A DNA stretch of 64,000 nucleotides from assembly GCF_003853705.1 (NCBI RefSeq), contig NZ_QTQI01000002.1:1-64000 (forward strand), in the 5' to 3' direction. The stretch is from Burkholderia sp. Bp8992 (lineage in GTDB: Bacteria > Pseudomonadota > Gammaproteobacteria > Burkholderiales > Burkholderiaceae). Below, piece after piece: positions 1,831 through 8,882 of this stretch. A program made the position numbers and the translations under genes. Under the pieces are notes generated by a model. It worked only from the letters and a program-made list of their open reading frames with translations. It was not told the DNA's origin and made no database searches. Within the stretch, counting starts at the first letter, position 1, and each line of letters opens with the position of its first letter.

Positions 1831-2475
1831 ATGACGCCGTGGGAGATTCAGGGTACCGAAATGATCAGCTGCAATTGCTCATACGGTTGCCCGTGCCAGT
1901 TCAATGCGTTGCCGACCAACGGCAATTGCGAAGCGATGGGGGCGATATCGATCGACAGCGGCCACTACGGCGACGTGGTGCTCGATGGTGTGAGGATCGC
2001 GGTCGTGTTCCAGTGGCCGGGTGCCGTTCACGAAGGCCGGGGCAAGTGCCAGCCGATCGTCGACGAACGTGCCAGCCCCGAGCAGCGCGATGCCGTGCTG
2101 AAGATCATGACCGGTCAGGATACCGATCCATTCGCGACGATGTTCTCGGTGTACGCGTCGACGCTCGAGCACGCGTTCGATCCGATCTTCACGACGATCG
2201 ATTTCGACGTCGATGTCGATGCGCGGCGCGGCCGGATTCACGTCGACGGCGTGTTCGACGCAACCGGCGAACCGATCCGCAACCCGGTGACGGGCGCCGA
2301 GCATCGCGCGCGGATCGACCTGCCGCACGGTTTCGAATACGAGGTGGCGGAAATCGGCTCGGGCTCGGGGCGCTCGCAAGGCAACATCGTGTTGAATCTC
2401 GACGGCACCTATGCGCAGTTCGCGCGGCTGCACATGAACAACCACGGATTGATCCGGCATCGCGTCGCGGCATGA
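1831..2475 (+). CDS. DUF1326 domain-containing protein
   Basis: This 214-residue cytoplasmic protein matches the DUF1326 family. The hallmark is the N-terminal cysteine cluster CNCSYGCPCQF (about residues 13-23), followed by another Cys in NGNCEAM, which looks like a metal or redox site. A good ribosome site (gaggtggag) precedes ATG 1831. Its stop overlaps the start of the next gene (ATGA at 2472-2475), which indicates translational coupling with the DUF2182 membrane protein; the two families are commonly adjacent. No function is established. Binding of a soft metal is my inference from the cysteines and from the CusF-like gene downstream. Confidence 0.85.
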   Translation: MTPWEIQGTEMISCNCSYGCPCQFNALPTNGNCEAMGAISIDSGHYGDVVLDGVRIAVVFQWPGAVHEGRGKCQPIVDERASPEQRDAVLKIMTGQDTDPFATMFSVYASTLEHAFDPIFTTIDFDVDVDARRGRIHVDGVFDATGEPIRNPVTGAEHRARIDLPHGFEYEVAEIGSGSGRSQGNIVLNLDGTYAQFARLHMNNHGLIRHRVAA

Positions 2476-3260
2476 CCCCGTTCGACACCTGGCTCGGCCG
2501 CGAGCGCGTCATCACGCTGCTCGCGATGGCCGCGCTCGCCGGCGTGTGCTGGTTCTACCTGTGGACCGGTGCGGGGACCGGCATGTCGGCACTGGACATG
2601 ACGACGTTCGCGCTCTTTCCGCACCGTCTCGCGGACGACACGGGCAGCATGGATCCATCGCTGCCGACCGTGATCGCGATGTGGTGGGTCATGATGATCG
2701 CGATGATGACGCCCGGCGCGGCGCCGCTCGTGATGCTGTACCGGCGCGTGCTGCGGCATCGCGGCGGCCCTTCCGGCTCGGCGTTCACGTCGGTGTCGCT
2801 GCTGGCCGGCTACCTGACGGCCTGGCTCGCGTTCTCGATCGGCGCCGCGCTGCTGCAGGCGATGCTGCAGCCGGCCGGATTGATCTCCTCGATGATGCTG
2901 TGGTCGAAGAGCGCGGTCCTTTCCGCTGTCGTCCTGGCGCTCGCCGGGCTCTATCAATTCTCGCCGCTGAAGCGCGCGTGCCTGCGGCAATGCCGTGCGC
3001 CGGCGGCGTTCCTGGTTGCGCACTGGCGTCCGGGTATCGCTGGCAGTTTCCTGCTCGGCGCGCGTCACGGCGCGTACTGCGTGGGCTGCTGCTGGCTACT
3101 GATGGCGCTGCTGTTCGTCGGCGGCGTGATGAACGTCGTGTGGATTGCCGCGTTGTCGCTCCTCGTGTTCGCGGAAAAAGTCCTGCCCGGCGGCGAACGC
3201 ATCAGCCGCGCGCTGGGCATCGTGCTGATCGCGTGGGCCGGTGCGACGTTGATCGTGTGA
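2472..3260 (+). CDS. DUF2182 predicted metal-binding integral membrane protein
   Basis: This 262-residue protein has about six hydrophobic segments. It shows the conserved DUF2182 features: a Met-rich transmembrane stretch (MWWVMMIAMMTPGAAPLVML, about residues 74-93), a CLRQCR motif near residues 173-178, and a CVGCCWLLM motif near residues 203-211. The Met and Cys residues placed within or beside membrane helices suggest a path or site for a soft metal ion such as copper. It starts inside the stop codon of the DUF1326 gene and is followed 53 bases later by a CusF-like protein. Its function is undetermined in the family. Confidence 0.85.
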   Translation: MTPFDTWLGRERVITLLAMAALAGVCWFYLWTGAGTGMSALDMTTFALFPHRLADDTGSMDPSLPTVIAMWWVMMIAMMTPGAAPLVMLYRRVLRHRGGPSGSAFTSVSLLAGYLTAWLAFSIGAALLQAMLQPAGLISSMMLWSKSAVLSAVVLALAGLYQFSPLKRACLRQCRAPAAFLVAHWRPGIAGSFLLGARHGAYCVGCCWLLMALLFVGGVMNVVWIAALSLLVFAEKVLPGGERISRALGIVLIAWAGATLIV

Positions 3261-3313
3261 CGGGCGCCGCCGCCCGGCAGCGGAAACTTGCGGGGCCCGT
3301 CGGGAGACTTTCG

Positions 3314-3661
3314 ATGAAAACCTGGTTTCATGCCGTCGCCGCTTGGTGCGCGATGGCTGTCGTCGCGATGCCGGTGTTCGCGGGCGGCGACATGTCCGGC
3401 ATGCAAATGGGCGACACGACGACGTCGGCGCCGGATGCGAAGTTGACCGATGCCGAGGTCAGGGCGGTCGATGCCGGGCGCGGGCGGGTGACGCTGAAGC
3501 ACGGTGCGCTCGACAACGTCGGGATGCCGCCGATGACGATGGCGTTCAAGGTCGGCGACGTGGCGATGATCCCGTCGCTGCATGCGGGCGACAAGGTCCG
3601 GGTTCGGGTTGAACGCGTCAATGGCACGCTCACGATCGTGAAGCTCGTCAAGCGGCCGTGA
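3314..3661 (+). CDS. Periplasmic CusF-like copper-binding protein
   Basis: This 115-residue protein has a clear signal peptide (residues 1-23, ending VFAGG), a short Met/Asp linker (GGDMSGMQMGD), and a CusF-like OB-fold domain at about residues 40-113. The domain holds the metal site KHG...MPPMTMAF; compared with E. coli CusF, the Trp of the Cu(I) site is replaced by Met while the two downstream Met residues are kept. Proteins of this type carry Cu(I)/Ag(I) in the periplasm. It is the third gene of the DUF1326-DUF2182 set, so a shared copper role is plausible. It ends 9 bases from the convergent cupin gene. Confidence 0.85.
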   Translation: MKTWFHAVAAWCAMAVVAMPVFAGGDMSGMQMGDTTTSAPDAKLTDAEVRAVDAGRGRVTLKHGALDNVGMPPMTMAFKVGDVAMIPSLHAGDKVRVRVERVNGTLTIVKLVKRP

Positions 3662-3670
3662 CGGGTGACG

Positions 3671-4126
3671 CTATTCGTCGTGATCGACGAACACCTTGTT
3701 GGCGCCCGCCTTGTACAGCCGCTTGCCGAGTTTCGGGTAGTCGCACACGTCGTGCTCCGGCCGATCGCCGGCGACGATATAGACGAGCGGCAGGTCGCCG
3801 GTATTGAGCATCGTATGCGCGGGGCCGCCGCGCGGGAATCCCATGAAGTCTCCCGGGCCGACCGGACAGGTCTGGCCGCCGATGGTTGCCTCGCCGAATC
3901 CGGACAGCACGTAGACGCATTCCTCGCCGTACAGGTGCCGGTGATATTCGGTCGATTCGTGACCCGGCATCAACGTCATCAGATGGAAGCCCAGTTGCGT
4001 CAGCCCGGTGGCGTCACCCAGTGACCGCTTCAGGCGGACGGCATTCGCGTTCAGCGGATGGACGGAATGCTCGGGTTCCATCGCCGCGATATCGGCGGCG
4101 CTCAGGATGGCTCGCGGGTTGTTCAT
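3671..4126 (-). CDS. Cupin domain protein
   Basis: This 151-residue protein has a single conserved cupin barrel. Motif 1 is seen in YHRHLYGEECVYVLSGFGEATIGG and motif 2 in VGPGDFMGFPRGGPAHTMLN; the histidines and glutamate are those that bind the metal in cupins. There is no DNA-binding domain, so it is a stand-alone cupin, perhaps a sugar isomerase, dioxygenase or metabolite binder; the substrate is unknown. ATG at 4126 gives the conserved start MNNPRAIL, and a longer upstream extension has unnatural composition. It is convergent with the CusF-like gene. An inverted repeat lies about 140 bases upstream. Confidence 0.8.
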   Translation of the reverse strand: MNNPRAILSAADIAAMEPEHSVHPLNANAVRLKRSLGDATGLTQLGFHLMTLMPGHESTEYHRHLYGEECVYVLSGFGEATIGGQTCPVGPGDFMGFPRGGPAHTMLNTGDLPLVYIVAGDRPEHDVCDYPKLGKRLYKAGANKVFVDHDE

Positions 4127-4261
4127 CGTCTGTCTGGTCCGGGGATCGGGGCGCCGGCGGCACGGATTGCAGGCTTTCGGGCAGGTATCGACGATAGCAT
4201 CGTTTGGGGGCGCTCGAAGGAGGCGGCGACGCAGCGCGCGGTCGTTTGACATGTAGTGCTA

Positions 4262-4284
4262 CGTAACACCGGATTCGTGTTACG
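4262..4284. promoter_or_regulatory. Inverted repeat, candidate operator
   Basis: CGTAACAC at 4262-4269 and GTGTTACG at 4277-4284 are perfect inverted copies separated by 7 bases. The site lies in the 344-base gap between the divergent cupin (starts 4126, minus) and the Ser/Gly-rich lipoprotein (starts 4471, plus), where a regulator could serve either gene. A third partial copy (gtgttat) follows at 4288-4294. The cognate regulator is unknown. The rest of the gap shows no gene. Confidence 0.45.
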
Positions 4285-4470
4285 CATGTGTTATCGGAAC
4301 GTAAGGTGCGCGTGCGCCGAAAGATCGGGCGACGGCGCCGTGCGTGGTGCGTGCCACGGGCGTCGGGACGGGGGATCCGCTGAGATTGCGGGACCACCAG
4401 CGGTTCTGATCGCGATGGCACGGTAGATGCTTGCCGGAAGCCCGGAGTTGAATAGCAGACGGGGACTTCC

Positions 4471-5592
4471 ATGCACAAACATTTCATCAACGCGAATGTC
4501 GCGCTCGCCGCCGTTGCTGCGGCGTGTGCGCTGGCGGCATGCGGCGGCGGGGACATCACGGCGCCGACGCTGTCGGGCAACAACATCGGGGCGAGCACGA
4601 GCGGGGCCAGTGGCACGAGCGGCAGCAGCGGCACGAGCGGTAGCAGCGGCACAAGCAGCAGCGGCACGAGCAGCAGCGGTTCGAGCAGCGGCAACACCAG
4701 CGGCTTCGGGACCAGCGGCACGCCGGGCACGAACGGCATCATCAGCTCCGTCGGCGGCGTCGTCATGGCCGCGGGCACGACGATCGACGGCGTGACGCCT
4801 CCCGTCGGCAAGGACGTGACGGCCGGACTCGGCAACACGGTCAACGGCGCCGGCACGATCATTCGCGATACCGCCAATGCGGTGAGCAACGGGATCGGCC
4901 GGATCGGCATCGCATCGAATCCGGTCGGCACGACCGTTGCCGGCCTCGGCTCGCTCGTCGGCTCGGCGAGCAGCCCGGTCACGGGCCTGAGCCAGACCGC
5001 GACGGCGCTCGGCACCGGGCCGCTCGCACCGCTGGCGCCGATCACGGCGCCCATCGGCGGCCTGCTCGATACGGTGGCCGGCGGTCTCCAGGGCGCCGGC
5101 GCGACACTCGGTTCGACGCTGTCGTCGGGCCCGGTGCAACAGGCGACGCAGGCGATCAGCACCGCGATCACGCCGCTCGTCACCACCACCGGCCAGCTCA
5201 CGCAGCAGGTCGGCACGGCAACGGGCCTCGGACAGCCGGTTGCCGGCCTGCTCGGACAGGTCGGCGCGGCGATCACCTCGGCGGGCGGCAAGGTGGCGTC
5301 GGCGTCGTCGCAGCCGATCGTCGGCGCCGTCGGCCAGGTCGTGTCAGCGGTCGGCAACACGGTGACCAATGCGGGCGGCCTCGTGAGTCCGAAAGGCGCG
5401 AACGGCGGCGCGCCGATTCCCGGTCTGGTGATCAGCGTCGCCGGCGGCATGCCGGCGATGGTGATAAACGGCCCCGGGGCCGGTACGGGCGGCGGTGCGG
5501 CGTCGGGCGGCACGGGCAATCCGCTCGCGCCCGTCACGTCGCTGGTGGGTGGCCTGCTCGGCGGTGTGACGGGCGGAGTCGCCGGCAAGTAG
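4471..5592 (+). CDS. Collagen-like/low-complexity exported lipoprotein
   Basis: This 373-residue protein begins with a lipoprotein signal peptide ending in the lipobox LAAC (Cys about residue 24), so it should be lipidated and carried to the envelope. A Ser/Gly/Thr tract (about residues 40-85) made of short SGTSG-like units follows, then a long Gly/Ala/Thr/Val-rich region with recurring LGS, VAGL and TGLG patterns. Burkholderia annotations usually call such proteins collagen-like triple-helix repeat proteins, but the repeats here are not strict Gly-X-Y. It is probably a surface or matrix protein. It stands alone with its own promoter region and is convergent with the Lrp-type regulator. Confidence 0.7.
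   Translation: MHKHFINANVALAAVAAACALAACGGGDITAPTLSGNNIGASTSGASGTSGSSGTSGSSGTSSSGTSSSGSSSGNTSGFGTSGTPGTNGIISSVGGVVMAAGTTIDGVTPPVGKDVTAGLGNTVNGAGTIIRDTANAVSNGIGRIGIASNPVGTTVAGLGSLVGSASSPVTGLSQTATALGTGPLAPLAPITAPIGGLLDTVAGGLQGAGATLGSTLSSGPVQQATQAISTAITPLVTTTGQLTQQVGTATGLGQPVAGLLGQVGAAITSAGGKVASASSQPIVGAVGQVVSAVGNTVTNAGGLVSPKGANGGAPIPGLVISVAGGMPAMVINGPGAGTGGGAASGGTGNPLAPVTSLVGGLLGGVTGGVAGK
4591..4716 (+). repeat. Ser/Gly/Thr codon repeat tract
   Basis: Within the lipoprotein gene, ggc-acg-agc and ggc-agc-agc codon blocks repeat with small variations and encode SGTSG/SSGTS units. Such tracts commonly vary in length between strains by slipped-strand mispairing or recombination. Confidence 0.7.
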
Positions 5593-6953: not shown

Positions 6954-8882
6954 TCAGAACGTATAACTGACCTTCCCGAACGCAGTCCGCCCGAGCGTGT
7001 TGTAGCCGTACGCGGTCATGTATTGCCGGTCGAACAGGTTCGACAGCGTGGCCGACACCGTCAGGTGCGAATTGATCCGGTACGACGCGCGCAGGTTCAC
7101 GGTCAGGTACGACGGCAGGTACGTCGCGTTGACCGGATCGTCGAACGTCGTACCGCCGTAGTTCAGCGCCGCCCCCGTGCTGAGCGCGTGCAGGTGCAGT
7201 TCGTCCCACGTGTGGTCCACGTTCAGGCTGACCGTCTGGCGCGGCCGGCGGTTCAGCCAGCTGTCATGGGTCTCGTCCTGCGGATTCAGTATGCCGATCG
7301 CGACGCTCACCGGCGTGTAGCGGCCGATCGTCCCCTTGTACGACAGGTCGATTCCGCGGATATGCGCGCGGCCGATGTTCATCGGCGAATACGTCGCCGG
7401 GTTGTAGGCGATCAGGTTGCTGACGCGCGTGTCGTAGATCGCCGCGGAAAACGTGCCGTACGACGTGTTCGCGTCGAGCGCGGCCTCGACCGACGTGCTG
7501 CGTTCCGGGCTGAGGTTCGGATTGCCGTAGCCGGGGTAGTACAGGTCGTTGAAACTCGGCAGGCGGAAGGCATTGCCGTACGACACGCGAGCCGTGTAGA
7601 CCGGCGTGATCGCCCACGACAGCGCGGCATTGCCGGTGTTCACGCCTTGTCCGGCGATGATCTCGCGACGCCCCGCGAGGAACAGCGTCACGCTGCCGAG
7701 CGTGGCCGACTGGTGCAGCGAGAACGCGGAGTCGTTGCGCGTCGGAATGCCGCCGGGTGCATCGACCGGCAGGAACGCCTGTTCGCGCGTGAAATCGTAC
7801 GCGAGCTTGCTCTCGCCCGACAGCGGCAGGCCGAACAGGTGGAATCCGCGCGCCTGATGGGTCAGCGACGTCGACGTGCTGATGCGCTGCGAATCGATCT
7901 GGCCGGTCGGGATGGCCGGATCGCTCGCATAGAGGAACTGGCGATCGTTCGCATAACCGAACGACTGGTCGAACTGCGTATCGGGCGTGATGTCGAGATG
8001 GAACGCGAGCCCGGTCGTCAGCTGGTGATCGAGCTCGCGGTTCGCATAGCCGCTGTTGTCGAAGGACAGGTCGGAGCGGTGATAGAGCGCGAACGTCGAG
8101 ATCGACCAGTTGTCGCGCGCGTAGCCGAGGCGCGCATCGAGATCCTGCGCGTGATACGGATTGCGGCCGTCCTCGTGATACGGCAGGACGGGCCGCGTCG
8201 AATCGATGCCGGCCGTGTTGTACGCGTGCAGGCCGAGCGAGTAGGTGAGCCCGCCGAGCGCGGCGAGCGGGCCGGTCGACGGCACCGTGCCCGACGTGCG
8301 CAGCTGCGTGTCGAAGGTCTTGTTCGACCCGCCGCCGAACGACACGATGGTCTGGTTCGGCTGGTTCGACGAGCGGCGCGTGAACAGCTGCACGACACCG
8401 CCCATCGCGTTGGCGCCGAACGACGCGGCGGCCGGCCCCGAAATCACCTCGACCCGTTCGAACGCATCCGTCGGCAGGTCGGCCCACGGCGCGATGCCGG
8501 TGGTCGGCGAGCCGATCCGGATGCCGTCGATGAACACGGCGACCTGGCTCGCCGACGAGCCCCGGATGCTGACCGATGCGGACGAGCCGGGGCCGCCGGT
8601 TTGCGACACGGTCACGCCGGGCAGCGTCGCGAGTGCCTGCGTGATGCTCGGGTCGCTCGGCGACAGCCGGTCGAGATCGGTTCGCGTGAGGACCTGGGTC
8701 GACGCATAGCGTCCGTCGAACGATTCGGGCAGGCGACGCGTGTCGGTCACGCTGATCGTCGGCAGGTCGGCGCTTTCCGCTGGCTGGGCGGATTGGGGGA
8801 GCGCGGTGTCGCCGGCGGCATGGGCGATCGGAGCAAGCAGCGCGGTGGCGGCGGACGTGGCGAGCAGGTAGCGAATGTTCAT
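6954..8882 (-). CDS. btuB: TonB-dependent receptor, BtuB-like (cobalamin/cobinamide uptake)
   Basis: This 642-residue outer-membrane receptor has a signal peptide (residues 1-25, ending AHAA), a TonB-box-like segment (TISVTD), a plug domain (SVSIRGSSASQVAVFIDGIR, then VEVISGPAAASFGANAMGGVVQLFTRR) and a 22-strand-type barrel ending in aromatic Phe, as required for outer-membrane insertion. Length and plug sequence fit the BtuB group. The strongest functional evidence is the cobalamin riboswitch directly upstream on the same strand, which should shut off expression when adenosylcobalamin is abundant. ATG 8882 gives the clean signal peptide. No other cobalamin genes are in the window. Confidence 0.9.
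   Translation of the reverse strand: MNIRYLLATSAATALLAPIAHAAGDTALPQSAQPAESADLPTISVTDTRRLPESFDGRYASTQVLTRTDLDRLSPSDPSITQALATLPGVTVSQTGGPGSSASVSIRGSSASQVAVFIDGIRIGSPTTGIAPWADLPTDAFERVEVISGPAAASFGANAMGGVVQLFTRRSSNQPNQTIVSFGGGSNKTFDTQLRTSGTVPSTGPLAALGGLTYSLGLHAYNTAGIDSTRPVLPYHEDGRNPYHAQDLDARLGYARDNWSISTFALYHRSDLSFDNSGYANRELDHQLTTGLAFHLDITPDTQFDQSFGYANDRQFLYASDPAIPTGQIDSQRISTSTSLTHQARGFHLFGLPLSGESKLAYDFTREQAFLPVDAPGGIPTRNDSAFSLHQSATLGSVTLFLAGRREIIAGQGVNTGNAALSWAITPVYTARVSYGNAFRLPSFNDLYYPGYGNPNLSPERSTSVEAALDANTSYGTFSAAIYDTRVSNLIAYNPATYSPMNIGRAHIRGIDLSYKGTIGRYTPVSVAIGILNPQDETHDSWLNRRPRQTVSLNVDHTWDELHLHALSTGAALNYGGTTFDDPVNATYLPSYLTVNLRASYRINSHLTVSATLSNLFDRQYMTAYGYNTLGRTAFGKVSYTF

Follow-up and report, generated by a model that had tools for sequence, protein, structure and literature searches.

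PF09948 is currently named "PpoB2, Copper chaperone" in Pfam. PpoB2 of Marinomonas mediterranea is encoded together with the tyrosinase PpoB1; it is reported to take part in a specific transfer of copper to PpoB1 and not to the laccase PpoA, and is described as the first COG5486 protein with an assigned role (PMC2855505). Other copper proteins of relevance here are CusF, which according to PMC10656224 usually feeds an efflux pump, and SBP56, reported to be a copper-dependent thiol oxidase (PMC5739008, PMC10362175). It is still unsettled by which routes copper gets into the cytoplasm of bacteria and which of the proteins there make use of it. A review states that bacterial cytosolic copper proteins generally bind the metal only transiently, and that further, uncharacterised copper importers likely exist (PMC7558416). 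Here we describe a locus in which a PpoB2 gene lies between a DUF1326 gene and a CusF-like gene. It is part of a stretch of 64,000 nucleotides from Burkholderia sp. Bp8992, in the following referred to as the window.

The three-gene locus

The coordinates and Pfam scores agree with a preliminary description of the window, which had listed three adjacent genes of which the first two, DUF1326 and DUF2182, overlap by 4 bases (Table 1). The motifs named there (CNCSYGCPCQF and CVGCCW) are likewise present in the sequence, as is MMIAMM. The overlap consists of ATGA at 2472-2475, and the CusF-like gene starts 53 bases past the DUF2182 stop. DUF1326 scored 179.6 bits against PF07040 (curated cut-off 25), DUF2182 220.5 bits against PF09948 (curated cut-off 28.7) and the CusF-like protein 78.6 bits against PF11604 (cut-off 27). 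With the NCBIfam CusF model, which is narrower than PF11604, the last protein reached 34.9 and thus stayed below the threshold of 143. The DUF2182 protein, in the following called PpoB2, is 90.1% identical to a protein of B. arboris. Past the CusF-like gene (3671-5592) follow a cupin gene on the minus strand and then a gene on the plus strand for a Ser/Gly-rich, repetitive, secreted-looking protein.

Table 1. Positions of genes and sequence features of the locus in the window
Feature	Position	Strand	Description and basis
DUF1326 gene (PF07040)	1831..2475	+	214 aa, without export signal; Pfam match, translation
CxCx3CxC motif of DUF1326 (residues 14-22, CNCSYGCPC)	1870..1896	+	four Cys invariant in 67 sequences
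Fifth invariant cysteine of DUF1326, C33	1927..1929	+	alignment of 67 sequences
PpoB2/DUF2182 membrane protein gene (PF09948)	2472..3260	+	262 aa, about 7 predicted TM helices, N-terminus predicted inside
Predicted periplasmic loop 1 of PpoB2 (residues 34-64)	2571..2663	+	3 Met here; family mean 5.2
MMIAMM in TM2 of PpoB2 (residues 74-79)	2691..2708	+	sequence and alignment
CLRQC, the CLxxC motif of the predicted cytoplasmic loop of PpoB2 (residues 170-174)	2979..2993	+	alignment, hydropathy
CVGCCW in TM5 of PpoB2 (residues 203-208)	3078..3095	+	predicted cytoplasmic half; alignment, hydropathy
CusF-like gene (PF11604)	3314..3661	+	periplasmic Cu(I)/Ag(I) carrier type; signal-like N-terminus
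CusF metal site H63...M71..M74.M76	3500..3541	+	Met replacing the capping Trp; alignment with E. coli CusF

That neither DUF family has an established function, as had been stated in the same description, no longer holds for DUF2182: since PF09948 is now PpoB2, a copper chaperone, one of the two families has a published role. For DUF1326 the statement stands, as no function was found in the literature searched. Neither DUF1326 nor the name DUF2182 led to a paper in this search, which lay mostly outside subscription journals.

DUF1326 and PpoB2 form a conserved pair

We determined the gene neighborhood of DUF1326 and PpoB2 at increasing phylogenetic distance from the window. The 61 genomes of the genus hold 130 PpoB2 places and 74 DUF1326 places, and all 74 DUF1326 places have a PpoB2 gene within 1 kb. 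In 200 genomes of the phylum PpoB2 adjoins 28 of 29 DUF1326 genes, as judged by comparing coordinates by eye, and the remaining one has no PpoB2 beside it. For a wider survey GTDB was scanned with a PpoB2 alignment, a procedure that selects for two PpoB2 motifs, and the best 80 of 562 confirmed stretches were evaluated. DUF1326 is the same-strand neighbor of PpoB2 at 75 of these best 80 loci, 74 times upstream and once downstream. The other five comprise one divergent DUF1326, three loci cut by a contig end and one (L132) without an intact neighbor. Members of Bdellovibrionota, Chloroflexi, Gemmatimonadaceae, Acidobacteriota, Opitutus and Sinomicrobium are found among the best 80, and the pair is also present in 9 of 10 annotated plasmid records, including those of the actinobacteria Nocardioides, Streptomyces and Rhodococcus, the cyanobacterium Leptolyngbya and the haloarchaeon Natrinema. 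DUF1326 and PpoB2 therefore are a tight and widespread conserved pair, far beyond close relatives.

A recurrent third gene beside the pair was looked for and rejected: the immediate same-strand neighbors, whose N-termini were read by eye, differ between loci. On pHG1 of Cupriavidus necator H16 the gene annotated straight after the pair codes for a GDCCVxC (seleno)protein without a Pfam match (L072: 8832-9059); this is the place that CusF has in the window. Variants of the arrangement occur as well. Three loci (L097, L104, L122) carry two tandem DUF1326 genes ahead of a single PpoB2 gene. One genome has a DUF1326 gene without adjoining PpoB2 (L026, G140:C1:112835-113386) and a second DUF1326 gene with PpoB2. 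At L132 an 84-aa ORF upstream of the intact PpoB2 gene (7244-7495) resembles a DUF1326 remnant by eye.

Conserved residues and predicted topology

We aligned 66 of the 78 DUF1326 homologues found together with the window protein (67 sequences). C14, C16, C20, C22 and C33 are invariant, and the window protein has all five. The CxCx3CxC motif was present in 77 of the 78 homologues; the remaining one is cut by a contig end. A hydrophobic N-terminus is absent in all 67 aligned proteins. A PDB profile search with DUF1326 yielded no relative, the top match being a designed knot protein (E 0.037).

The PpoB2 alignment contains 70 sequences (69 of the 80 scan loci and the window protein), in all of which C170 and C174 are conserved. 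Conservation of the MM..MM and CxGCCW columns is not countable in this set, as the scan had selected for both motifs. Averaged over the 70 sequences PpoB2 shows about 7 hydrophobic stretches, and the mean number of K+R per loop alternates from the N- to the C-terminus (3.0, 1.1, 3.4, 0.5, 5.0, 0, 2.5). Applied to these charges, the positive-inside rule predicts a cytoplasmic N-terminus, a cytoplasmic CLxxC loop and a periplasmic loop of residues 34-64. In the family this loop has on average 5.2 Met per 32 residues, the window protein having 3. When a similar stretch of 42 residues was compared between PpoB2 proteins with different neighbors (see below), the mean Met content was 4.7 for DUF1326-linked, 4.1 for DUF899-linked and 0.4 for tyrosinase-linked proteins (5 of 9), so that a Met-rich loop is not common to every PpoB2 branch. 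The PDB profile search with PpoB2 gave no match; an antibody hit with E 0.52 was dismissed as chance.

Alternative partners of PpoB2 and their cysteine patterns

At 56 places in the genus PpoB2 occurs without DUF1326. One fragment was left out; among the 55 places examined 46 lie by DUF899, 8 by a tyrosinase and one, a fragment, by neither; for a few of these loci the neighbor family was verified by Pfam. A hand tally of 398 genomes of the phylum gave 65 PpoB2 genes over the cut-off: 56 by DUF1326, 5 by DUF899, 2 by a tyrosinase and 2 by none of these. A further partner may be SBP56, which forms a run with a 2Fe-2S protein (Fer2) and PpoB2, in this order, on a Paracoccus plasmid and in genome G587. 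In one family SBP56 is present in 67 and PpoB2 in 110 of 198 genomes, and the SBP56 operon was seen by eye in only one of them. The link between SBP56 and PpoB2 is thin and rests on these two loci.

The partner is reflected in the PpoB2 sequence. When rows were aligned to the window PpoB2, C170, C174, C203, C206 and C207 were all kept in 51 of 52 DUF1326-linked proteins. In DUF899-linked proteins C170 is replaced by Arg or His (47/47), in tyrosinase-linked ones C206 by Thr, Asn or Ala (9/9). Since most of the rows come from one genus, these patterns are not independent events. With C206 kept, and with DUF1326 and CusF-like neighbors instead of a tyrosinase, the window PpoB2 does not belong to the Marinomonas-type tyrosinase-linked proteins. 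We also mapped the partner on a tree made by a quick method from 112 rows: 75 with DUF1326, 24 of the 47 with DUF899 plus three others, 9 with tyrosinase and one with SBP56. The partner label changes 4 times on this tree, the least possible number being 3; shuffled labels gave a mean of 33.8 changes, and none of 200 shuffles was as low. Each partner type thus has its own PpoB2 branch and its own cysteine pattern. Two exceptions were noticed: L006 has lost C170 while keeping its DUF1326 neighbor, and at L245, which covers 5.6 kb, a PpoB2 with the five cysteines has no partner.

All partner types share the lack of a signal-like N-terminus, which was found in none of 67 DUF1326 proteins, 40 DUF899 proteins, 9 tyrosinases and 1 SBP56 (CusF-like control 2.16). 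Start codons for this comparison were set by rule, so that an upstream start may have been missed. DUF899 weakly matches AhpC/TSA, a thioredoxin-like hint.

Further observations concern single loci. At L251 (G402:C1:65995-71387) a broken PpoB2 gene with an internal stop lies about 1.5 kb from a gene of the MbnB/TglH/ChrH family (PF05114), whose enzymes take their name from the modification of RiPPs. At L264 and L265 (genomes G611 and G499) SBP56 is found 1-3 kb from the PpoB2 gene with a regulator-like gene in between; PpoB2 at L265 is part of a DUF1326-PpoB2 pair. On a Caballeronia grimmiae plasmid (L217) a DUF1326-DUF2182 pair and a tyrosinase-family gene lie about 2.3 kb apart.

A possible role of the pair in copper delivery

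Both the PpoB2 family and its connection with copper were known before. For the partnership with DUF1326, the exchange of partners and the matching cysteine patterns we found no description in the literature searched. We propose that DUF1326 is the dedicated cytoplasmic copper client of its PpoB2 branch and that PpoB2 brings Cu(I) inward, a proposal that we regard as about evenly balanced between right and wrong. With its Met-rich loop PpoB2 would capture periplasmic Cu(I), in this genus perhaps from the CusF-like carrier as an optional donor. From there the paired Met residues in TM2 and the TM5 cysteines may relay the metal to the CLxxC motif on the cytoplasmic side, and PpoB2 would finally load the co-encoded DUF1326, whose five invariant cysteines would form the acceptor site. 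We infer copper as the metal because Marinomonas PpoB2 serves a copper enzyme, the tyrosinase, and because SBP56 is copper-dependent. By analogy with this tyrosinase, the client of Marinomonas PpoB2, DUF1326 may be a client rather than a store or a donor. The predicted topology of PpoB2 and its partners without export signal favor the direction from periplasm to cytoplasm. The handling of a soft metal by proteins arranged across the inner membrane, which the preliminary description had suggested while leaving the direction open, is thus supported, with copper as the probable metal and import as the favored direction.

Several observations count against copper delivery. These are the exceptions L006 and L245, the lone DUF1326 gene (1 of 29) and the SBP56 link with its two loci; in addition, transient copper binding is described as general for cytosolic proteins (PMC7558416), and the weak AhpC/TSA match of DUF899 points to thiol redox no less than to copper. 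In a wider and more tentative reading, possible but on balance doubtful, the PpoB2 family consists of client-dedicated copper importers. If each branch loads its own cytoplasmic copper protein, then DUF1326, and perhaps DUF899, would be copper proteins or enzymes so far overlooked in the cytoplasm of bacteria and archaea. With one half belonging to a copper-chaperone family whose other branches lie beside known copper enzymes, the pair makes DUF1326 a specific candidate for a copper protein, with C170, C206 and the CxCx3CxC motif as residues for testing.

The same predicted topology can be read in the opposite direction. DUF1326 would then collect cytoplasmic Cu(I) and pass it to the CLxxC motif of PpoB2 for export or detoxification, in this genus to the CusF-like carrier. 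The cysteines of DUF1326 and the CLxxC motif are both predicted inside, which suits DUF1326 equally in the role of donor and of acceptor, and the usual role of CusF in feeding an efflux pump (PMC10656224) fits as well. However, neither an ATPase nor another source of energy is a repeated neighbor of the pair, as far as neighbor N-termini judged by eye rather than by family search can tell, most pairs are without CusF, and the Marinomonas tyrosinase and SBP56 are not exporters but enzymes that have to be loaded. We therefore consider export unlikely.

Alternatively, PpoB2 could carry reducing equivalents instead of metal across the membrane and so connect its opposite side with thiol proteins of the cytoplasm (DUF899, DUF1326). 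Conserved cysteines are abundant in DUF1326 and PpoB2, DUF899 has its weak AhpC/TSA match and SBP56 is a thiol oxidase. The reported transfer of copper by PpoB2 to the tyrosinase, a copper enzyme (PMC2855505), speaks against such a redox pair, as do the Met-rich outer loop and the Met pairs of TM2, which suit Cu(I) but not electrons, and we hold it to be quite unlikely. In a further alternative DUF1326 would not be an enzyme-like client but would be filled by PpoB2 so as to store copper in the cytoplasm or serve there as a general chaperone. Its five cysteines, and the fact that no downstream client gene recurs beside the pair, would fit this. But the exchange of DUF1326 for a tyrosinase or SBP56 suggests that the neighbor of PpoB2 is its client, which makes a store or general chaperone very improbable.

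The CusF-like gene is a local accessory

In the alignment with E. coli CusF the metal-capping Trp corresponds to Met71 of the window protein, as had been noted before; the other three residues of the His-Trp-Met-Met site are kept. Among the CusF proteins adjoining the pair all 17 that were aligned, a count that omits the truncated L048 and the spurious match L054, have a His-Met-Met-Met site, which indicates that the change from Trp to Met is fixed in this local CusF branch. A literature search for a Trp-to-Met mutant of CusF gave no match.

Across the genus (61 genomes) a CusF-like gene adjoins 20 of the 74 DUF1326-PpoB2 pairs, but in the phylum sample (200 genomes) it adjoins none of the 29 DUF1326 genes. 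By sequence search it is present at 3 of the best 80 GTDB loci, all of them from Burkholderia, and at one more locus 8 kb off. The genome nearest to the window lacks CusF at its pair, and an Lrp-like regulator directly follows PpoB2 there. The CusF-like gene therefore is a local accessory confined to part of the genus. What had been described as an undescribed module of three genes thus stands for the DUF1326-PpoB2 pair, whose linkage extends beyond close relatives, but not for CusF as a member, which the GTDB scan placed beside the pair in Burkholderia only. Although the gene lies next to the pair on the same strand here and its site is uniform, a three-gene metal module is hardly credible, and as a general unit it is refuted by these linkage counts.

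Comparison with known systems

The window CusF-like protein shares with CusF/SilF (PF11604) the fold family, the His and two Met of the metal site and a signal-like N-terminus. It differs in the Met at the position of the capping Trp and in its neighborhood, which is the DUF1326-PpoB2 pair and not a CusCBA pump. Copper importers of the CcoA type resemble PpoB2 in that the direction proposed here also leads from periplasm to cytoplasm (PMC7558416). CcoA, however, is described as an MFS transporter (PMC7558416), whereas PpoB2 has about 7 predicted helices and no relative by sequence in the PDB. The methanethiol oxidase MtoX is an SBP56 copper enzyme that likewise has a copper helper, SCO1/SenC, encoded alongside it (PMC5739008); in contrast to MtoX, reported to be exported and periplasmic (PMC5739008), SBP56 beside PpoB2 is without a signal-like N-terminus.

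PpoB1-PpoB2 of Marinomonas also is among the closest described systems. The partner in the window is DUF1326 and not a tyrosinase, and the window PpoB2 keeps five cysteines and falls on another branch of the tree than the tyrosinase-linked proteins of this analysis. Both systems have in common a membrane protein of the PpoB2 family encoded beside a signal-free partner, and tyrosinase-adjoining relatives of PpoB2 exist in the window's own genus.
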